Source: Brevundimonas vitisensis (GTDB lineage: Bacteria > Pseudomonadota > Alphaproteobacteria > Caulobacterales > Caulobacteraceae). Taken from it: a stretch of 64,000 nt of DNA. Both the position numbers and the translations under genes were made by a program. Below, in pieces: positions 10,585 to 50,888 of this stretch. The notes beneath the pieces are model-generated. The model was not told where the DNA came from. It saw only the letters and a list, made by a program, of their open reading frames with translations, and did not search any database. How positions within the stretch are numbered: the first letter of the stretch is position 1; each line of letters begins with the position of its first letter. The stretch spans positions 2,833,501 to 2,897,500 of the forward strand of contig NZ_CP067977.1 in assembly GCF_016656965.1 (NCBI RefSeq). Direction: 5' to 3'.

Positions 10585-11154
10585 ATGAATCTGATCCTGT
10601 TTGGACCGCCTGCGGCGGGCAAGGGTACTCAGGCCAAGCGTCTGGTCGAGCAGCGCGGCATGGTCCAGCTGTCGACCGGCGACATGCTGCGCGAGGCCAT
10701 CGCGTCGGGCTCTGAACTGGGCCAGCAGTGCCAAGCCATCATGTCCGGTGGCGGCCTGATTGCCGACGACATCGTCATCGCCCTGATCGAGGCGCGACTG
10801 AAGGAGGCGGAGGACGCCGGAGGGGCCATCTTCGACGGTTTCCCGCGCACCCTGGGCCAGGCCGAGGCTCTGGACGCCATGTTGGCCAAGCTGGGCAAGA
10901 AGATCGACCATGTCGTTCGTCTGAAGGTGGATGACGGCCAGCTGCTTGAACGCATCGCCCGCCGCTACGCTGACCAGGGGCGGCCTGACGACAATCCGGA
11001 CAGCTTCAAGGTTCGGCTGGAAGCCTATAACCGCAACACCGCGCCGCTTCTGCCGTACTATGACGAGAAGGGCCTGTTGACCGAGGTTGACGGCATGGGT
11101 TCGGTCGACGCCGTTGCAGCCGCCATCGATACGGCCCTCGACACGCGAGTCTGA
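10585..11154 (+). CDS. adk: Adenylate kinase, short form
   Basis: Adenylate kinase interconverts ATP + AMP and 2 ADP in the cytosol. The 189-residue protein has the P-loop GPPAAGKGTQ at 7-16, the AMP-binding region TGDMLREAIASGSELG and FDGFPRTLGQAEAL. The LID is short (RRYADQGRPDDNPDSF), without the zinc-type cysteines or the long insertion of E. coli Adk (214 residues); this short form is common in alphaproteobacteria. It follows secY in the conserved secY-adk order, with GGGGGAGGGCGG as ribosome binding site. Confidence 0.97.
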   Translation: MNLILFGPPAAGKGTQAKRLVEQRGMVQLSTGDMLREAIASGSELGQQCQAIMSGGGLIADDIVIALIEARLKEAEDAGGAIFDGFPRTLGQAEALDAMLAKLGKKIDHVVRLKVDDGQLLERIARRYADQGRPDDNPDSFKVRLEAYNRNTAPLLPYYDEKGLLTEVDGMGSVDAVAAAIDTALDTRV

Positions 11155-11211
11155 TCGACCTCTGCCGCTCGCGCGTTACAGTTTCCGACTGACGCGTCCG
11201 AGAGGCTGTAT

Positions 11212-11952
11212 ATGACCATCGCAGGGACCGCACGACCGAAGGTGCCGCAACGGCGCCGGTTCGGCCTTGGTTTGCTGGTGCTGTTGGTCCACCTGTCCTT
11301 CCTGCCCTTCCTGGCGCGGGTTTCTGCGCCAGAGCCGGCAGCTGATATCCCGCCGCCGGTCGAAGTGGTGCTGGTTTCGCCGCCGCCGCCCCCGCCGCCG
11401 CCGCCGCCCTTGCAGCCTGCCGTCGTGGCCGGTGGCGGATCGCCCGCTGCGCCCTCACGGGTAAACATCCTGCCCGATCCGCCGCCTGTGCCGCCCGAGA
11501 TCGTTGCCCCGCCGGTCCAGGCCCCCGAGCCGTCGATCGTGGTCGGTACTGCGCCCTATGCCGATGCCGTGCCGGGGCCGGGCCTCGGCGGTCAGGGAAC
11601 GGGCTCTGGCGGCGGTACAGGGGCGGGCAGGGGGCCTGGACGCGGTGGTCGCCCGCTGCTGCTCTCGGGGCCGTCGGTCGATCAGATCCGCAGGGTCTAT
11701 CCGCGTGCAGCCCTGAATGCGGGCGTGTCGGGCAGAGGCCTGATCACTTGCCGCATTCGGCTGGACACGCGACTGGAAGACTGCCGTCTGGTGGAAGAAA
11801 GTCCGCCGGGGCGGGGCTTTGGGGCTGCCGCCCTCGCCACGGCTGCCAACTTCCGCTTTCGACCGCCCACCATTGATGGAGAGCCCTTGGCGGGCGCTGA
11901 GATCACCTTTGGCGTCGATTTCGATGCCGGACAGGTGCGCGGGCGTCGATAG
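11212..11952 (+). CDS. TonB-like energy transducer protein
   Basis: TonB proteins pass inner-membrane proton-motive energy to outer-membrane receptors. This 246-residue protein has a basic N-terminus, one membrane anchor at about 17-37 (FGLGLLVLLVHLSFLPFLA), a run of ten prolines at 57-66, a Gly-rich linker at about 125-150 and a C-terminal TonB-like domain of about 85 residues starting at YPRAALNAGVSGRGLITCRI. It lies between adk and rpsM, a place where most relatives carry no extra gene. No exbB or exbD is nearby. A TonB-dependent receptor lies at 29843-32239, but no functional link is shown. Two Cys in the C-terminal domain (ITCRIRLDTRLEDC) could form a disulfide. Confidence 0.8.
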   Translation: MTIAGTARPKVPQRRRFGLGLLVLLVHLSFLPFLARVSAPEPAADIPPPVEVVLVSPPPPPPPPPPLQPAVVAGGGSPAAPSRVNILPDPPPVPPEIVAPPVQAPEPSIVVGTAPYADAVPGPGLGGQGTGSGGGTGAGRGPGRGGRPLLLSGPSVDQIRRVYPRAALNAGVSGRGLITCRIRLDTRLEDCRLVEESPPGRGFGAAALATAANFRFRPPTIDGEPLAGAEITFGVDFDAGQVRGRR

Positions 11953-11966
11953 GTGCCCGCAACCCA

Positions 11967-11994
11967 TTGACGCAATCTGAATCGCCGCTATAAC
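11967..11994 (+). promoter_or_regulatory. Sigma70-type promoter in front of rpsM
   Basis: TTGACG at 11967-11972 and TATAAC at 11989-11994 are separated by 16 bases, a good match to the housekeeping consensus. The start point would be near 12001, giving an about 80-base leader for rpsM-rpsK-rpoA-rplQ. It lies just after the tonB-like gene, so the alpha operon can be transcribed independently of spc. Confidence 0.6.
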
Positions 11995-12018
11995 GGCGCG
12001 CTTCCGCGAAGGGCGCAG

Positions 12019-12048
12019 AACGCTCCTGGTCTGTTGACCGGAGCGTTT
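12019..12048 (+). other. Leader hairpin upstream of rpsM
   Basis: AACGCTCC (12019-12026) pairs with GGAGCGTT (12040-12047), and inside it GGTC pairs with GACC around TGTT, giving a strong compound stem followed by TGTTGCG. It could terminate transcription from upstream genes or act as an attenuator or protein-binding leader for the alpha operon. Confidence 0.5.
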
Positions 12049-12081
12049 GTTGCGTCCGACAACGCGTATTTGGAGAGCTTC

Positions 12082-12450
12082 GTGGCCCGTATCGCTGGCG
12101 TCAACATTCCGACCAACAAGCGCGTCGTGATCGCGCTTCAATATATCCATGGCATCGGCCCGAAGTCCGCGCAGGACATCGTCGAGAAAGTTGGTATCGA
12201 GGCCGAGCGCCGCGTCAACCAGCTGACCGATGCTGAGGTCCTGCAGATCCGCGAGACCATCGACCGCGACCTGACGGTCGAGGGCGACCTGCGTCGCGAG
12301 ACCTCGATGAACATCAAGCGTCTGATGGATCTGGCCTGCTACCGCGGCCTGCGTCACCGCAAGGGCCTGCCGGTCCGCGGTCAGCGCACCCACACCAACG
12401 CCCGCACCCGCAAGGGTCCCGCCAAGCCGATCGCCGGCAAGAAGAAGTAA
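12082..12450 (+). CDS. rpsM: 30S ribosomal protein S13
   Basis: S13 (122 residues) lies in the 30S head, bridges to L5 and contacts P-site tRNA through its basic tail. I start it at the GTG at 12082 because the universal N-terminus (M/V)[14 protein letters not shown] begins there and GGAGAG precedes it at good distance; an in-frame ATG at 12034 would overlap the leader hairpin and add 16 unrelated residues. [20 protein letters not shown] and the basic C-terminus are typical. It is the first gene of the alpha operon. Confidence 0.96.
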
Positions 12451-16201: not shown

Positions 16202-17077
16202 CTATTCCTTCGACAGGTCCTGGCGGTTGAACCAGACGATGGCGCCGGCGGCGGGGAGCAGGGTCCACAGGGCGAAGCTGAGCCAGGCCTTGAGCACCAT
16301 GCCGTCGGCGACAGCGGCGGCGTCGGGTCCGCCGCGGACCAGGGTCTTGAGCGTGTCCAGCCCGCCGCCCGGATTGACCAGGACCGACAGCCAGCTGTCA
16401 GGCAGGAAGCCCATGGGCGGCAGGACCTGCATCGGCAGGAAGAACTGGGCGATGCCCAGGACCAGGGGCACGAACAGGGCGACCAGCAGGGACCGGGTCA
16501 TGACGGCGGCCAAGAGGCCGATCATGGTGAACTGGATGATCCGCAGCAGGCACAGTCCGGCCAGCAGCAGGATCTGCCCCACATCGCCCAGGCTGAGGGT
16601 AAAGGCCAGGTCGCGCTCGAACACCATGGCCTGGATCAGGTCGCTGATGGTGCCCGAGACCAGCATGGCCAGCATGGCGATCAGGGCCAGGCCGACCACG
16701 ACGGCCAGCTTGCCCAGCAGCAGGTTGGGCCGCGTGTTGCGCGCACTGACCAGACGCCAGGTCTCCCACCGATAGTCGCCAGCATAGACGGTCGCCGCCC
16801 CAATCAGGATGAACAGCAGGACCAGCGCATTGGACAGGCCCGCCGCATTGGCGATCATGGCCTGGCCCAGGTCCAGCGGCTGGGTCGACAGCATCTGGGT
16901 CAGTTCGGGCGGCGCCTCGGGGTCGGCGGCCATCTTGGTGGCATTGGCGTCGATGACGACGCTGCTGATCGCCCCACCGACGAGCAGCAGGATGGGGGCG
17001 AAGAACACGCTCCAGAACCAAGTGGTGCGGCTCTTGGACAGGCGGAAGGCCTCCGCGCGAATGGCGTCAGCCCACAT
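16202..17077 (-). CDS. ABC-2 type transporter permease
   Basis: This is an inner-membrane permease of an exporter. The roughly 290-residue protein has about six hydrophobic segments: FWSVFFAPILLLVGGAISSV, ALVLLFILIGAATVYAGDY, LAVVVGLALIAMLAMLVSG, ILLLAGLCLLRIIQFTMIGL, SLLVALFVPLVLGIAQFFL and SFALWTLLPAAGAIVWF. I start at the ATG at 17077, which has GGAG seven bases upstream; an ATG six bases earlier (17083) is too close to it. The gene overlaps the end of the ATPase gene upstream, so the two are one operon. The substrate cannot be read from sequence. Confidence 0.85.
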   Translation of the reverse strand: MWADAIRAEAFRLSKSRTTWFWSVFFAPILLLVGGAISSVVIDANATKMAADPEAPPELTQMLSTQPLDLGQAMIANAAGLSNALVLLFILIGAATVYAGDYRWETWRLVSARNTRPNLLLGKLAVVVGLALIAMLAMLVSGTISDLIQAMVFERDLAFTLSLGDVGQILLLAGLCLLRIIQFTMIGLLAAVMTRSLLVALFVPLVLGIAQFFLPMQVLPPMGFLPDSWLSVLVNPGGGLDTLKTLVRGGPDAAAVADGMVLKAWLSFALWTLLPAAGAIVWFNRQDLSKE

Positions 17078-17993
17078 GGTCATGCTCCGGTGTCTGGACG
17101 GCACCCGTCTCGGTGAAGAAGACGCTTTCCAGGTCGGTGCCGACCCAGCGCGCCTCGTCGATGTCTATGCCCTGTTCGACCAGGGCGCGGATCAGGGCCG
17201 GGCCCTCTGCTCGCGGCACATGGGCCAGGATGGCCGTGCCGTCGGTGCTGGCGCGGTCGCCCAGAATGGCGGCGGCGCGTTGCGGGGCACTGTCGACCGG
17301 CGTCAGGGACAGGCGCAGACGCTCGCCCGTGGTGGTCAGGTCGGCGACCGTGCCCTCGCGCACCAGCTTACCGCGGTTCATGATGGCAACGCGGTCGCAG
17401 ACGCGCTGGACCTCCAGCAGCTGGTGGCTGGCCAGGATGACGGTCAGGCCGTCGTCATGGGCCAGACTGCGGATAAGGGCGCGCATCTCCTGGATGCCGG
17501 GGGGATCCATGCCGCTGGTCGGTTCATCCAGGATGATCAGTTCCGGCTCGGTGATCAGGGCGGCCGCCACGCCCAGGCGTTGCAGCATGCCGACCGAGAA
17601 GCCGCGCACGCGCCGGTCCGCCGCCTCGGTCAGGCCGACCCGCTCCAGCCAGCGATCGGTGCGGGTGGTGTCGGCCTTCAGCCCATGGGCCAGCGACAGC
17701 CAGGTCAGGACTTGGCGCGCGGACATATAGGGGGGATAGCGGGGCGTCTCGATCATCGAGCCCATACGGCGCATGGAGGCCGGATCGCCGATCGCGCCCC
17801 CCATCACCGTGGCCGAGCCCTCGGTGGGGCGGATCAGACCCAGCAGGATGCGGAACAGGGTCGACTTGCCGGCACCGTTGGGACCCAGCACGCCATAGAC
17901 GCCGCCCTTTGGAATGCTCAGGCTCAGGCCGTTCAGGGCCCGCACCGTGCCATAGGTCTTGGTCAGACCGGTCGTTTCGATGACTGCGCTCAT
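17067..17993 (-). CDS. ABC transporter ATP-binding protein
   Basis: This ATPase (308 residues) powers the ABC-2 permease encoded next to it. It has Walker A GPNGAGKST at about residues 39-47, a signature region GFSVGMLQRLGVAAAL, and Walker B LIILDEPTSGMDP. About 80 residues after the ATPase domain form a C-terminal domain as in NatA/CcmA-type exporters. The start at 17993 (MSAVIETTGLTKTYG) is the first plausible one; the frame runs open far upstream but without ABC sequence. Lipid, peptide or drug export are all possible. Confidence 0.9.
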   Translation of the reverse strand: MSAVIETTGLTKTYGTVRALNGLSLSIPKGGVYGVLGPNGAGKSTLFRILLGLIRPTEGSATVMGGAIGDPASMRRMGSMIETPRYPPYMSARQVLTWLSLAHGLKADTTRTDRWLERVGLTEAADRRVRGFSVGMLQRLGVAAALITEPELIILDEPTSGMDPPGIQEMRALIRSLAHDDGLTVILASHQLLEVQRVCDRVAIMNRGKLVREGTVADLTTTGERLRLSLTPVDSAPQRAAAILGDRASTDGTAILAHVPRAEGPALIRALVEQGIDIDEARWVGTDLESVFFTETGAVQTPEHDHVG

Positions 17994-18078
17994 GGGCCGA
18001 CCTTGGCGAGAAGCCCGGCGCGCCACAAGCCGGATCGTGATTAAACTTAGGCAATGTCGTGGCGGGCATGTGGCGCGC

Positions 18079-18103
18079 GGAACGATCGGAAAGCGCGGCG
18101 GTT
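18079..18103 (+). promoter_or_regulatory. Possible EcfG (general stress) promoter of the htrA-like gene
   Basis: GGAAC at 18079-18083 is followed after 16 bases by GGTT at 18100-18103, close to the alphaproteobacterial EcfG/sigmaT pattern GGAAC-N16/17-CGTT. The downstream gene is an HtrA-type protease, a common stress-regulon member. The match is short and unproven. Confidence 0.3.
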
Positions 18104-18182
18104 TGACGGCCTGATCCGCCATCAAGCCGACGAAATGCCGGGGCGAAATGGCGCTGTTACCTGGCTCGGAGAGACCCGCCCG

Positions 18183-19556
18183 ATGAAGACCCACGCGTTG
18201 ATCGCCATCGCTGCCTTGACCATGTCGGCCTGCGGAGCGCCCGCCGACACCCAGGCTCAGGAAGGCGTCTTTGCAGAGACGAACCGCGTCACGCCGGGCG
18301 ATGCCGGTTCGATGAAGGCCAGTTTCGCGCCCGTGGTGCGCACCGCCGCCCCGGCCGTGGTCAATATCTCGGCGCGCGGGGTGCAGACTGTTCGCGATCC
18401 CTTCTGGGGCCAGTTCAGCCAGCCGACCGGCTCGGTCGGATCGGGCGTGATCGTGCGGCCCGAGGGCGTGGTGGTCACCAATGCCCACGTCATCGCCGGG
18501 ATGAGCGAGATCAAGGTGGTACTGAACGACCGGCGGGAGTTCTCGGCCCGCGTCATCCTGGCGGACGAACGCAGCGACATCGCCGTGCTTCAGCTGGAAG
18601 GGGTGGAGGAGCGCCTGCCGACCCTGAGCATCGACGACCGCGAGGAACAGCAGATCGGCGATCTGGTCCTGGCGATCGGCAATCCGTTCGGGGTGGGGCA
18701 GACGGTGACCAACGGCATCATCTCGGCCCTGAACCGGACGGAGACGGGCATTTCGGACTCCGGCTCCTTCATCCAGACGGATGCGGCGATCAATCCGGGG
18801 AATTCGGGCGGGGCGCTGGTCGACATGGACGGCGAGCTGATCGGGATCAATACGGCCATCTTCTCGCGCTCGGGCTCCTCGTCCGGGGTCGGGTTCGCGG
18901 TGCCGGCCTCAATGGTGCGCCAGGTGGTGGACAGTGCCGTCGGCGGGGCCCGGGCCGTGGTCCGGCCATGGCTGGGCATCAAGGGCGAGAGCGTCACCGC
19001 CGAGCGTGCGCGCGAGCTAGGGCTGGAGCGGCCGCGCGGTCTGGTCGTGACGGGCGTCTATGCGGGCGGGCCGGGCGCGCGGGCGGGCCTGCGTGAAGGT
19101 GACGTCATCACCGCCGTGGACGGGGCCGAGGTCAACGACCAGGGCGGGCTGAACTTCCGCGTCGGGACGCGCGCGCCGGATACGGCGGTGCAGGTCGAGA
19201 TCCTGCGGGGTGGGCGGACCCAGACCCTGTCGGCGCGGGTCCAGCCCCTGCCGGGCGATGCCGACGTGGCGCGGGCCGTGACGATCCAGCAGGGGGCCCT
19301 GGCCGGGGCCCAGGTCCTGACCCTGAACCCCGCCCTGGCCGATGCCCTGGGTGGCGATCCATTCGCCAGCGGCGTGATCATCGGCCGGGTCGCGCGCGGC
19401 AGCTATGCCAACCGCATCGGCTTCCAGCGGGGCGACATCGTCGTGGCCGTCGACGGCCGCCCGGTGACCTCGACACAGGCCCTGGCCAATCTGGGCCGCG
19501 GGGCCGAGGTCACGATCCAGCGTGGCGGCCAGCGGGTGACGGGGGTGATGCGGTAG
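18183..19556 (+). CDS. HtrA/DegP-type serine protease, putative lipoprotein
   Basis: This is a periplasmic quality-control protease of the HtrA family (457 residues). The start at 18183 gives a lipoprotein-like signal sequence with Cys17 after LTMSA; in-frame codons upstream from 18054 are unlike protein. The catalytic triad is His102 (TNAHVI), Asp132 (SDIAVL) and Ser208 (NPGNSGGAL). Two PDZ domains follow, at about 265-350 (LGIKGESVTAERARELG) and 365-457. Lipid anchoring differs from classical soluble DegP and would tether the protease to a membrane. It is divergent from the ABC exporter genes. Confidence 0.9.
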   Translation: MKTHALIAIAALTMSACGAPADTQAQEGVFAETNRVTPGDAGSMKASFAPVVRTAAPAVVNISARGVQTVRDPFWGQFSQPTGSVGSGVIVRPEGVVVTNAHVIAGMSEIKVVLNDRREFSARVILADERSDIAVLQLEGVEERLPTLSIDDREEQQIGDLVLAIGNPFGVGQTVTNGIISALNRTETGISDSGSFIQTDAAINPGNSGGALVDMDGELIGINTAIFSRSGSSSGVGFAVPASMVRQVVDSAVGGARAVVRPWLGIKGESVTAERARELGLERPRGLVVTGVYAGGPGARAGLREGDVITAVDGAEVNDQGGLNFRVGTRAPDTAVQVEILRGGRTQTLSARVQPLPGDADVARAVTIQQGALAGAQVLTLNPALADALGGDPFASGVIIGRVARGSYANRIGFQRGDIVVAVDGRPVTSTQALANLGRGAEVTIQRGGQRVTGVMR

Positions 19557-19662
19557 GGGGCAGGTCGAATTTGTTCGATCGTCTTTGACGGTGCTGGTCG
19601 TAGAGCCTACCCCATAGGAACGATGTCTCTGCTCAATGCAGGGGCTCGAAGGACTATAGCCG

Positions 19663-19818
19663 ATGACTATCGTGACCCATACCGACCTGACGACTACACC
19701 TGATGCGCTGCTTGACGATCGCGCCGTGTGGACCGCGCCGACCCTGCAGCATTTCGACACGGTGTCGGCGGGAAACAGTGGTGGCTACGGTGCCGACGGT
19801 GGCTACGGTGGCTCGTGA
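19663..19818 (+). CDS. Short peptide 1, putative RiPP-like precursor
   Basis: This 51-residue peptide is preceded by GAAGGA nine bases before the ATG. It has a polar N-terminal half ending in the block RAVWTAPTLQHFD and a Gly-rich C-terminus in which GYG and GGYGGS surround one Asp. Aligned without gaps, it shares 19 of 51 residues with the second peptide at 19992, including DLTT at 8-11, D18, RA at 20-21, W23, AP at 25-26, L28, D32, SA at 35-36 and the final Ser. Same length, conserved first half and variable tail are what leader/core precursor peptides look like. The neighbouring hydroxylase and sulfotransferase are candidate tailoring enzymes. No family is recognised and the function is inferred. 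Confidence 0.55.
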   Translation: MTIVTHTDLTTTPDALLDDRAVWTAPTLQHFDTVSAGNSGGYGADGGYGGS

Positions 19819-19874
19819 CGCAAAGTCCGTACCCGCAGCTGGAGCCGTTGTTCGATGGAGCGGCTGTCCCATAA
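19815..19874 (+). pseudogene. Fragment resembling the start of the beta-hydroxylase gene
   Basis: A GTG overlapping the stop of peptide 1 (GTGA) opens a 19-codon frame whose product contains PQLEPLFDGAAV. The hydroxylase at 20200 begins MHRPLPLEPLFDWPVG, so LEPLFD and the preceding Pro match, with similar DNA over about 25 bases. The frame then stops at TAA and no further similarity is visible. I interpret it as the remnant of a duplicated peptide-plus-hydroxylase unit; a chance match of seven residues cannot be excluded. Confidence 0.4.
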
Positions 19875-19991
19875 CCAACCTGCCACCAGCCTAATTTCTC
19901 GCACCGTGCAAACGGCATTGACCGTGCCAACCGCGTGATCTAACAGCGCAATTTCAAGATCCGCGCTGTGCGGATAAAATGCGTGAGAGCG

Positions 19992-20147
19992 ATGACTGTC
20001 GACAAAAATAGCGATTTGACCACCGTTGCAAACGTGGCTGTCGACAACCGTGCCGAGTGGATCGCGCCTGTTCTGGAATGTCTGGACGTCGAGTCCGCAG
20101 AGGCCGAAGGCCCCAGGCGGGATGTTTACGGCGCGCCTCTGAGCTGA
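19992..20147 (+). CDS. Short peptide 2, putative RiPP-like precursor
   Basis: This is the second 51-residue peptide, a homologue of the one at 19663. The conserved half reads DLTT, then RAEWIAPVLECLD; the tail differs and ends GPRRDVYGAPLS. Both tails contain an Asp followed two or three residues later by a Tyr, which fits the idea that the adjacent Asp/Asn hydroxylase and sulfotransferase act on them, but this is inference. An ATG at 19979 is in another frame and stops quickly. The ribosome binding region (GTGAGAG) is weak. The DNA is less GC-rich than its surroundings. The hydroxylase gene starts 52 bases after the stop. Confidence 0.5.
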   Translation: MTVDKNSDLTTVANVAVDNRAEWIAPVLECLDVESAEAEGPRRDVYGAPLS

Positions 20148-20199
20148 GATTGCGACCAGCGGCGGGAGCGATCAGTGGGTTGGGTGAATAAGGCGCACG

Positions 20200-20790
20200 A
20201 TGCATAGACCCCTGCCGCTGGAGCCTTTGTTTGACTGGCCAGTGGGCGATATTCTAGCCGCCTTGCCGTCGAATGATGACGCGGTCTGGGGCGTGTTCAA
20301 CACGCGCCAGGCCAAGTTTGAAGTCCACAATGCGACCCGGTCGATCGTATTCCGCTGGCTGGAAGAGCTGATGATCGCGGACCCGCAGCCGGTCGCGCGC
20401 CTGACCTATCCGGCACCGGCATTGTCCGATGCCGTGAACCGGGCGGTGGATGCGATTGAGGGCCATTATGGCGGCACCGCCGTGCGGGCCCTGCTGGTCG
20501 AACTGGCCCCCGGCCACACCATTCCCACGCATCGGGACCATGGCCTGCTGCTGCGTGACACCCATCGCTGTCACCTGCCGATCCTGACCCATGAGGGGGT
20601 GCGGTTCCCGATCGACGGCATCGACCATCATCTGGCGGCGGGCACCGTCTATGAGGTGGACAATATGCGACGGCATTCGGTGGCCAATGCGGGGCCGGGG
20701 CGCCGGGTGCACCTGATCGTCAACGTCCTGCCGTCCGGATGGACCCCGCCGTCAAAGACGAGCGTAGCCGAAGGCCTCGAAGTCGTCTGA
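20200..20790 (+). CDS. Aspartyl/asparaginyl beta-hydroxylase family protein
   Basis: This is an Fe(II)/2-oxoglutarate dioxygenase of the aspartyl/asparaginyl beta-hydroxylase (AspH) family, 196 residues. The core motif is at 107-129: HRDHG gives the metal ligand His111, and RCHLPI supplies Arg123 and His125. GTVYEVDNMRRHSVANAG carries the second metal His159, and RRVHLIVNV contains Arg169 for 2-oxoglutarate. The small cytosolic form lacks any membrane anchor. It lies directly behind two homologous 51-residue peptides in the same direction, suggesting they are its substrates. Its last 39 bases overlap the 3' end of the convergent sulfotransferase gene. Confidence 0.85.
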   Translation: MHRPLPLEPLFDWPVGDILAALPSNDDAVWGVFNTRQAKFEVHNATRSIVFRWLEELMIADPQPVARLTYPAPALSDAVNRAVDAIEGHYGGTAVRALLVELAPGHTIPTHRDHGLLLRDTHRCHLPILTHEGVRFPIDGIDHHLAAGTVYEVDNMRRHSVANAGPGRRVHLIVNVLPSGWTPPSKTSVAEGLEVV

Positions 20791-21498
20791 GAACATGGCG
20801 TTGATGGTGGCGATCTGATCGGGGCGCAGGACGTCGCGCGGGTCGAACCGATTGGACATCATCCCCTCCTTGGCATGGGGCAGGACGATGCGGTCGGGCA
20901 CGCCCAGCCGCGCGAGGAAGGCGTCGAACTCGTCCTGAAGCTGTTCGTAGTGGATGACGAAGCGGTCCATCCGCCCGCTCGGATCGCCATAGACGTCGGG
21001 CGAGAACATCTTCTTCAGCCAGCCAGATTCGAGTTCCTTATCAAACGCCTGGGCCCAGGTCTTAGGATCGGTCCGCATGTCTGCGCCGCGGGTATAGTCC
21101 GTGTAGTTGTCGCGCATGTTCAGGGCCGACAGCACCCGCGCATAGGGGGAGCGGGCCAGGCAGACGGCCGTGAACCCATCCAGCGAACCGGGATAGTGTT
21201 CGATCACCTCTGACAGCTTGGTGTGGGCGGTAAATCGGCTGGACGGCTGGGGCACGCGGTGCAGGTTCTCGTCCGGCGTTTCGCGCACCAGGGTGTCATA
21301 GGCGGCTTCCAGCAGGGGAGAGGCCCCATAGTTGCGGCTGCGCACGCCCAGGGCCTGTCGGCGGCGTTCCTCCAGGGCCACCATGGGGGGTAGGATGTCG
21401 TCGGGCCCGCAGATGGCGGATAGGCCGATCTCGACACTGGTGCCGCCCACCTTCACGGCGCGGACGAAGACGAATTTGTGGGCGATGGACAGCAGCAA
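20752..21498 (-). CDS. Sulfotransferase family protein
   Basis: This is a probable PAPS-dependent sulfotransferase. The 5'-phosphosulfate loop is VRAVKVGGTSVE near the N-terminus (Lys16 and Thr20 in my numbering) and the 3'-phosphate motif is LARSPYARVLSAL (Arg116, Ser124). No ATG suits the start: the first in-frame ATG (21687) lies inside the divergent rarA gene, so I use the TTG at 21498 that gives MLLSIAHKFVFVRAVKVGG and 248 residues; this remains uncertain. The gene is convergent with the hydroxylase and overlaps it by 39 bases. It could sulfate a tyrosine or a hydroxylated residue of the nearby peptides, or have an unrelated carbohydrate substrate. Confidence 0.7.
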   Translation of the reverse strand: MLLSIAHKFVFVRAVKVGGTSVEIGLSAICGPDDILPPMVALEERRRQALGVRSRNYGASPLLEAAYDTLVRETPDENLHRVPQPSSRFTAHTKLSEVIEHYPGSLDGFTAVCLARSPYARVLSALNMRDNYTDYTRGADMRTDPKTWAQAFDKELESGWLKKMFSPDVYGDPSGRMDRFVIHYEQLQDEFDAFLARLGVPDRIVLPHAKEGMMSNRFDPRDVLRPDQIATINAMFSDDFEAFGYARL

Positions 21499-21614
21499 GG
21501 CGGAGACTCTCTTTCGAAGTTCCCCATAGCGGCATCGTGAGGAAAGCGCAGTGACAATGCGCGGGGGGTAGAGGGCGGCGAGACACCTGTGCAACAGCCT
21601 GATAGGTCTGACCC

Positions 21615-50094: not shown

Positions 50095-50888
50095 CCGACC
50101 CGGTGACCTCCCCGACGACCGACGATCGCGAGGTGCTGATCCAGGTGCGCGGACTGCTCAGTCAGTTCGGCGAGCGCACTATCCACGAGAACCTGGACCT
50201 GGATGTTCGGCGCGGCGAGGTGCTGGGCGTCGTCGGCGGATCCGGCACGGGCAAGACCGTGCTGCTGAACTCCATCATCGGCCTGAAGGAGCCGGAGGGC
50301 GGATCTATCCGCATCTTCGACCACGACATTTCCGACATGACCAAGGAGCAGGCCGCCGACATCGAGCGCCGAACCGGCGTGCTGTTCCAGCAGGGGGCTC
50401 TCTATTCCTCGCTCAGCGTGCTGGACAATGTGGCCTCGCCCCTGGTCGAGCATACCAAGATGCCCCGCGACATGATCCGCGAACTGGCAGAGATGAAGAT
50501 CGCCATGGTGGGCCTGAAGCCGGAAAGCCATCATCTGAAACCGGCCGAGCTGTCCGGCGGCATGAAGAAGCGGGTCGGCCTGGCCCGTGCCCTGGCGCTG
50601 GATCCCGAACTGCTGTTTCTGGATGAGCCGACGGCGGGGCTGGACCCCATCGGTGCGGCGGCGTTCGACGACCTGATCCGCACCCTGTCCGACGACCTGG
50701 GTCTGACCGTCTTCATGATCACCCACGATCTGGACAGCCTTTACGCCATTTGTGACCAGGTCGCCGTCCTGGCCGACAAGCATGTGGTGGAAAAGGCGAC
50801 GGTTCAGGAACTTGAGCGTTCCGACCATCCGTGGATCAAAGAATACTTCCTTGGACCGCGCGGCCGTGCCGCCAACAAGGCCGCCTGA
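50091..50888 (+). CDS. mlaF: MlaF-type ATP-binding protein
   Basis: This 265-residue ABC ATPase powers the Mla transporter. It has Walker A GGSGTGKTVLLN near residue 45, the Q-loop region RTGVLFQQGALYSSL, signature LSGGMKKRVGLARALAL, and Walker B ELLFLDEPTAGLDPIG. I start at the ATG at 50091 that overlaps the MlaE stop (ATGA). A much longer open frame runs upstream from 49425 but is antisense-like translation of the permease gene. Confidence 0.93.
   Translation: MTDPVTSPTTDDREVLIQVRGLLSQFGERTIHENLDLDVRRGEVLGVVGGSGTGKTVLLNSIIGLKEPEGGSIRIFDHDISDMTKEQAADIERRTGVLFQQGALYSSLSVLDNVASPLVEHTKMPRDMIRELAEMKIAMVGLKPESHHLKPAELSGGMKKRVGLARALALDPELLFLDEPTAGLDPIGAAAFDDLIRTLSDDLGLTVFMITHDLDSLYAICDQVAVLADKHVVEKATVQELERSDHPWIKEYFLGPRGRAANKAA

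Follow-up and report, generated by a model that had tools for sequence, protein, structure and literature searches.

What do two short peptide genes make that lie beside a hydroxylase and a sulfotransferase-type gene, when the enzymes that would mature such peptides are encoded elsewhere in the genome? The question is raised by a locus between htrA and rarA of Brevundimonas vitisensis, whose genome is a single contig of 2.98 Mb (NZ_CP067977.1). The whole 64,000-nucleotide stretch that was analysed (positions 2,833,501 to 2,897,500) is called the window here. The locus encodes two peptides of 51 residues, A and B, an AspH-family hydroxylase (AspH) and a Sulfotransfer_2-type protein. The original prediction regarded this arrangement as a candidate system for a ribosomally synthesised and post-translationally modified peptide (RiPP). 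The present analysis favours another answer, to which a probability of roughly 0.55 is given: the locus would be a satellite cassette of two lasso-type precursors that depend on a PqqD-type RiPP recognition element (RRE) and of two tailoring enzymes, and the lasso loci of the same genome would supply the remaining functions in trans.

Peptides A and B and their leaders

The features of the two peptides are as follows (ORF, open reading frame); the start of the core is set 15 residues past the Trp of the WxxP motif (W+15 rule).

19663..19818, + strand: precursor peptide A (51 aa) with a lasso-type leader and a core that varies; ranks second among the 524 window ORFs scored with a lasso-precursor profile
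19729..19746, + strand: motif W23-TA-P26-T-L28 of A, predicted binding site of the RRE (PqqD-type recognition protein); fits the motif of PMC13381572
19774..19815, + strand: predicted core of A, residues 38-51, NSGGYGADGGYGGS; W+15 rule, inferred cleavage site
19992..20147, + strand: precursor peptide B, a 51-aa paralogue of A; ranks first among the 524 window ORFs scored with the same profile
20058..20075, + strand: motif W23-IA-P26-V-L28 of B, predicted RRE-binding site; alignment and motif of PMC13381572
20103..20144, + strand: predicted core of B, residues 38-51, AEGPRRDVYGAPLS; W+15 rule, inferred cleavage site

The homology of the two peptides, on which the original prediction was built, is borne out. 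Both ORFs exist, and A and B are identical at 19 of 51 positions in an ungapped comparison, a value that shuffled versions of B reached in none of 100,000 trials (maximum 12). No other of the 188 window ORFs of 40-65 aa (a set that contains A itself) matches A as well as B does, the next one having 12 identities, and ten of the 19 shared residues are encoded by different codons. With the ATG at 19992 as its start, B has 51 aa; the mechanical ORF opens eight codons upstream at a GTG. A protein search with A returned four entries, of which P0008 nearly duplicates A itself; the others are P0009, P0010 and P0011, the last of which is named Brevundimonas. The search with B returned one entry, apparently the protein of the genome itself. 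P0009, P0010 and P0011 keep the leader while the core varies, in line with the leader/core behaviour that had been proposed, and their cores retain an Asp, a Tyr further along and the Ser at the end.

A profile was built from six precursors that lie beside lasso-type enzymes (three from the locus L043, the others from L042, L077 and L080), four of which belong to the host genome. Run on the 524 window ORFs of 25-130 aa, it ranked B (E 8.9e-6) and A (E 2e-5) at the top, with the next ORF at 1.1. In a larger set of 2602 ORFs of 25-130 aa, taken from the window and from loci longer than 10 kb (L032 left out), 13 ORFs scored better than 0.02, all of them peptides of this type, namely A and B, the six precursors used for training, three from L075 and one each from L076 and L078. 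By this profile comparison, the leaders of A and B are lasso-type leaders. A five-member profile (A, B, P0009, P0010 and P0011) was run on 131 genomes of the genus. Its matches outside the host include peptides encoded within lasso-type clusters (E 1.1e-4 and 1.2e-4) as well as a lone peptide (E 8.1e-4). Some match at E <= 0.5 occurred in 37 of the 131 genomes; such a peptide is present in four of seven inspected regions of other genomes (L076, L077, L078, L080) and was not found in the remaining three (L079, L081, L082), and the weak matches are therefore largely noise. A lone lasso-type precursor lies at L076:9843-9989 of another genus genome, with no lasso-locus gene detected within 20 kb.

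Both leaders contain the motif [Y/W]xxPx[L/V/I/A/F/Y], as WTAPTL in A and as WIAPVL in B, which passages of one study give as the motif for most discrete lasso recognition proteins (PMC13381572). Moreover, the distance of 15 residues from the Trp to the predicted core equals the W-15 that the same passages ascribe to the paeninodin-like peptide PbaA (PMC13381572).

The W+15 rule was fixed after a first pass had been seen; with the first rule (first A[EG] or TA in reach), the core Asp stood at position 8 in 8 of 11 other precursors. One further precursor, found in a wider profile scan of the genome, joined the W+15 table, which thus holds 12 others and omits L075:8891 (leader without matching core), L078 (near-duplicate of L077), P0008 and the peptide of Sphingomonas sp. 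Root720 described below. Lasso rings are closed on an Asp or Glu at core position 7-9. With the inferred cleavage site, the core of A has its Asp at 8, flanked by Tyr before and after, the core of B has Asp at 7 and Tyr at 9, and both end in Ser; in P0009, P0010 and P0011, the Asp stands at 8, 9 and 9. The Asp hence lies at 7-9 in all five A/B-family cores (shuffle mean 1.24; 12 of 20,000 shuffles match) and at 8 in 12 of 12 precursors outside this family (shuffle mean 1.09; none of 20,000 reaches 12), related rows overstating the independence of both counts. Ser is the last residue in all 17 precursors. Tyr occurs in every A/B-family core, each time with one past the Asp, compared with one of the 12 others.

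The lasso-type loci of the host genome

It had been noted that no transporter, protease or lasso cyclase lies beside the peptides. This is correct locally, where the lasso-locus queries remained without a match and the exporter query gave two partial matches at 27-31% identity, in an ABC ATPase gene at 17067-18488 and at 50193-50786, but it does not extend to the genome, in which lasso loci are present. Lasso-type enzymes are encoded about 97-107 kb from the window peptides and at 1.01 Mb, with PF13471 genes (leader peptidase type) at 1019522, 2950037 and 2957742 and PqqD genes at 1008019, 2954175 and 2960063. The 1.01 Mb locus comprises a full lasso-type gene set, and the 2.95 Mb locus the core enzymes. 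Both encode a protein of the Asn-synthase type, for which a lasso cyclase model is the best match in NCBIfam (213 and 156 bits, cut-off 525), kinase-like proteins with weak HPr-kinase scores and a Sulfotransfer_1 protein. An NTP_transf_5 gene and an ABC exporter were found at the 1.01 Mb locus only, and at 2.95 Mb a gene for a TPR and 2-oxoglutarate (2OG)-Fe(II) oxygenase lies near the precursor. A free-standing new RiPP class was rejected because the leaders score with precursors of lasso clusters.

With the wider profile, 12 places of the genome look like precursors, the weakest at E 5.1e-8; ten are rows of the profile and two are new. Two of the 12 lie in the window, five at 1.134-1.136 Mb, four at 1.014-1.021 Mb and one at 2.954 Mb. 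Seven of the 12, namely those of the window and of 1.134-1.136 Mb, are therefore outside both lasso loci and away from the maturation genes that were found.

Further observations were made at these loci. The five precursors of L075:8891-10789 (1133.9-1135.8 kb) form an array in which no lasso-locus gene was matched in 20 kb; it adjoins a gene that by eye resembles a TonB-dependent receptor, and its first peptide, a leader without a matching core, may be damaged. L042:9974-18189 (2.954-2.962 Mb) contains the TPR and 2OG-Fe(II) oxygenase (PF13759), Sulfotransfer_1 and at least two kinase-like genes, which again pairs an oxygenase with a sulfotransferase. At L043, an extra precursor is encoded on the opposite strand (11964-12101), and two genes within the lasso-type locus (10754-11866) look by eye like phage tail-collar genes.

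The putative tailoring enzymes and the island

The two enzymes and the region that carries the cassette are as follows.

20200..20790, + strand: AspH-family (PF05118) hydroxylase, 196 aa; Pfam match and alignment
20752..21498, - strand: Sulfotransfer_2-type protein, 248 aa, TTG start by homology; weak PF03567 match
19557..21614, no strand: island bounded by the end of htrA (19556) and the start of rarA (21615); comparison with 29 relatives and G+C

AspH starts 52 bases past peptide B and is the sole PF05118 match of the genome (E 2.3e-11, 44.2 bits, cut-off 22.6). Residues H111, D113, H159 and R169, which we take to be the metal and 2-oxoglutarate ligands, are invariant in all eight aligned sequences. 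The closest solved relative by profile is the L-proline cis-4-hydroxylase 4p7w, whose similarity covers the catalytic part and amounts to 33 bits only (E 3.5e-7). At E <= 1e-20, AspH was found in one of 131 genus genomes, the host itself; at E <= 1e-3, 79 of 199 wider-family genomes had a match, the best beyond the host being 4e-18 at 30% identity. Several family genomes have two AspH-like matches about 2.5 kb apart (e.g. G114:C2:99056-102043), with 29-40% identity to AspH.

The sulfotransferase gene is convergent with aspH, and the 3' ends overlap by 39 bases. Its start is best placed at 21498 (TTG), where the Sphingomonas relative begins, and the mechanical ORF extends to 21687. Against PF03567 (cut-off 22) the long form scores 22.3 bits and the 248-aa form 23.4. 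KVGGTS at position 16 and RSPYARVLS at 116 resemble loops that bind 3'-phosphoadenosine 5'-phosphosulfate. At E <= 1e-15, the protein was found in two of 385 genomes of the class, the host and one with 30% identity, and at E <= 1e-20 the relative from Root720 was found in one of 397 genomes of its own family, Root720 itself.

Genome scans yielded four loci that match AspH. Only at that of Sphingomonas sp. Root720 (L032) was the sulfotransferase found as well, again convergent at the 3' end of the hydroxylase gene, with 52-53% identity for AspH and 54% over 248 of 248 residues for the sulfotransferase. The surrounding cluster (L032:696-9290) encodes a PqqD protein, two kinase-like proteins, a Sulfotransfer_1 protein, a weak Sulfotransfer_3 match below its cut-off, a JmjC_2 protein and an ABC exporter. 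It also holds a peptide of 45 aa that carries WETPRV and ends in Ser; the W+15 rule, applied by eye, places its Asp residues at 6 and 7. The Root720 genome has three PF13471 genes, all on other contigs. That the pair recurs in a cluster which also encodes a PqqD-type RRE and a WxxP peptide supports the link between hydroxylase and sulfotransferase that had been suggested. The expectation that short peptides accompany AspH in related genomes has a mixed outcome. It is borne out at Root720; neither the sulfotransferase nor such peptides were found at the other three loci, one of which (L035) ends 13 bases past the match, or in the short stretches around 29 distant AspH matches of the family. The Root720 cluster may represent a separate type of linear RiPP.

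A rarA search of 61 genus genomes matched in 55, and 30 loci were compared, one of which is the window itself. In the 29 relatives, neither AspH nor the sulfotransferase was found in either flank of rarA (up to 1.5 kb on each side, tblastn E 1e-5). The end of htrA is visible in 25 of these stretches, and in 22 of the 25 the gap between htrA and rarA holds an opposite-strand ORF of 137-169 codons with a conserved start (in L102 also a second one of 193). In two relatives the gap measures only 58 or 83 bases, and L096 showed just the antisense of such a gap ORF. By eye, the gap ORF of the relatives looks like a VOC/glyoxalase protein. The G+C content of the peptide genes is 0.59 and 0.63, compared with 0.705 for htrA and 0.665 for rarA. 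Judged from these comparisons, the cassette is rare and looks acquired.

A phage origin was rejected after one scan of viral contigs with the peptide alignment, in which none of 67 pattern stretches was confirmed as a locus. Plasmid carriage was also rejected, as plasmid records gave distant matches only (four records at 27-31% for the sulfotransferase, three records for AspH, none of them covering more than 80% of the query). A DNA-pattern count for the WxxP codons in the genome was uninformative (397 and 418 matches, 422 and 425 in the control). Upstream of htrA, the window encodes an ABC-2-like permease and an ATPase (16202-18488, - strand), the latter scoring 187.5 bits against a lantibiotic-protection model (cut-off 309.75).

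A proposed pathway and its rivals

In the satellite-cassette reading, a distant PqqD protein from the 1.01 or 2.95 Mb locus would bind the leader of A or B. AspH would then hydroxylate the linear precursor, most likely at the conserved Asp, by analogy with CanE. The sulfotransferase would act on the Tyr past the Asp, which is the best candidate, or on the new hydroxyl group. The C-terminal Ser may be phosphorylated on the linear precursor, in trans from the lasso loci, both of which contain kinase-like genes (below curated cut-offs) that have no match in the window. Leader binding would be followed by hydroxylation and possible phosphorylation, leader removal, ring closure, perhaps to a threaded shape, and export, with the lasso loci supplying all of these functions except hydroxylation in trans. 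What the data show directly is the make-up of the locus, the kinship of its peptides with lasso precursors, the maturation machinery in the genome and the recurrence of the two enzymes in Root720; the supply in trans, the two reactions and a threaded product are predictions.

Known systems offer partial parallels. CanE of the canucin A pathway is a 2OG enzyme that is reported, with the help of B1, to beta-hydroxylate Asp in a lasso precursor that is still linear (PMC9266682). It is a precedent for the proposed step, although CanE targets a C-terminal Asp, whereas the Asp of A and B sits inside the core and the enzyme belongs to PF05118. For the sulfation, RaxX and RaxST provide a precedent of bacterial Tyr sulfation of a ribosomal peptide; to our knowledge, RaxX has no lasso-type leader. 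Sulfatyrotides of this kind are named in another article (PMC9484694), and a sulfotransferase gene is described as opening some Firmicutes lasso clusters (PMC8498205). The paeninodin type (PadeA/PadeK) shares with A and B the WxxP leader and the C-terminal Ser, and with the host lasso loci the discrete PqqD protein, kinase-like genes and, at 1.01 Mb, NTP_transf_5. Passages on paeninodin report that its C-terminal Ser is phosphorylated and that the same Ser is conserved in precursors of kinase-bearing clusters (PMC9266682). In contrast to this type, which passages of one study call restricted to Bacillota (PMC13381572), A and B lie away from B1, B2 and C, have Ala at leader position -2 and do not reach the cut-off of the paeninodin model. 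Among the matches listed in a search of titles and abstract openings of the open-licence PMC literature, neither a PF05118 or Sulfotransfer_2 enzyme in a lasso-type pathway nor a lasso-type peptide that is hydroxylated, sulfated and possibly phosphorylated was recognised.

Several points weigh against the satellite-cassette reading. No query for a lasso locus (B1, B2, C, kinase, nucleotidyltransferase, Sulfotransfer_1) had a match in the window, and elsewhere in the genome the cyclase and kinase genes were assigned from scores that do not reach the curated cut-offs. Against the paeninodin lasso family NF033524 (cut-off 27 bits), B scores 15.8 bits and A has no match; the lasso-cluster precursor L077 is likewise low (13.1 bits). 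The Ala at -2 departs from the usual Thr(-2) of lasso leaders, for which a study of phosphorylated lassos mentions Ile/Val(-2) exceptions and in which a Gly1-Asp8 ring is given (PMC10368454). The first predicted core residues are Asn (A) and Ala (B). As the closest solved relative of AspH is a proline hydroxylase, Asp is not assured as its substrate. The sulfotransferase assignment by profile is weak, and for the relative in Root720 Pfam gives nothing at E 0.1. The WxxP peptide of Root720 is not recognised by the lasso-precursor profile (E 1.2), and neither B2 nor a cyclase was matched in L032 or in L119, which extends 18.5 kb further upstream. Moreover, none of the seven AspH relatives from the protein search is named Brevundimonas, unlike the peptide relative P0011, so that peptide and AspH may not always co-occur.

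The Root720 cluster also gives substance to a rather doubtful alternative, in which A and B stay linear and are phosphorylated, hydroxylated or sulfated, with an RRE, a kinase and an exporter in use but no cyclase. Linear Polyphosphorylated Peptides (LPPs) resemble the Root720 cluster in these respects and are reported to share the RRE motif of lasso precursors although they lack a cyclase (PMC13381572). The spread of the Asp over positions 7-9 in the A/B family, where the 12 other precursors have it constantly at 8, fits a linear product as well, but all five cores retain the Asp at a ring-forming distance. Furthermore, LPP leaders carry YxxP, whereas A and B carry WxxP, and LPPs are called restricted to Bacillota in the same passages (PMC13381572). 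LPPs also use an SpI-type leader peptidase; no signal-peptidase gene was noticed by eye among the window ORFs, and no genome search was made for one.

It is unlikely that A and B are lasso-type precursors whose neighbours AspH and sulfotransferase act on another substrate, having arrived through one acquired island. P0011 may be without AspH, the two convergent enzyme genes do not form one operon, and three of the four AspH loci show no such neighbours (L035 being cut by the contig end); yet both enzymes occur together again in a distant genus, where an RRE and a WxxP peptide accompany them, the Tyr residues set the A/B cores apart from the other precursors, and aspH begins directly downstream of B. 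A decaying remnant of a lasso cluster whose core genes have disappeared would fit the failure to find such genes locally and would have a counterpart in the damaged-looking peptide of the 1.134 Mb array. We consider this very improbable, since both peptide ORFs are intact, both enzymes keep their sequence motifs and the relatives of A retain leader, Asp, Tyr and Ser. That A and B are not translated at all is hardly credible: the third-position G+C of the short ORFs (0.65-0.69) is below that of neighbouring genes (0.78-0.88), but A has homologues at the protein level, the peptides match the precursor profile and more than half of their shared residues are encoded by different codons.

The satellite-cassette reading can tentatively be carried further, to a distributed lasso factory with two assembly lines and twelve precursors, in which the window would be a mobile add-on for making a hydroxylated, sulfated and possibly phosphorylated lasso-type peptide. 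If the cassette is indeed served in trans, the lasso-type pathways of these alphaproteobacteria would work across distant loci, and precursor searches that are limited to core clusters would therefore miss many substrates (7 of 12 in the host genome). AspH and the sulfotransferase would together make up a new tailoring module. Finally, the genome would provide a natural case for studying the choices that recognition proteins make in a cell with many WxxP precursors, which is close to the question raised in PMC13381572.

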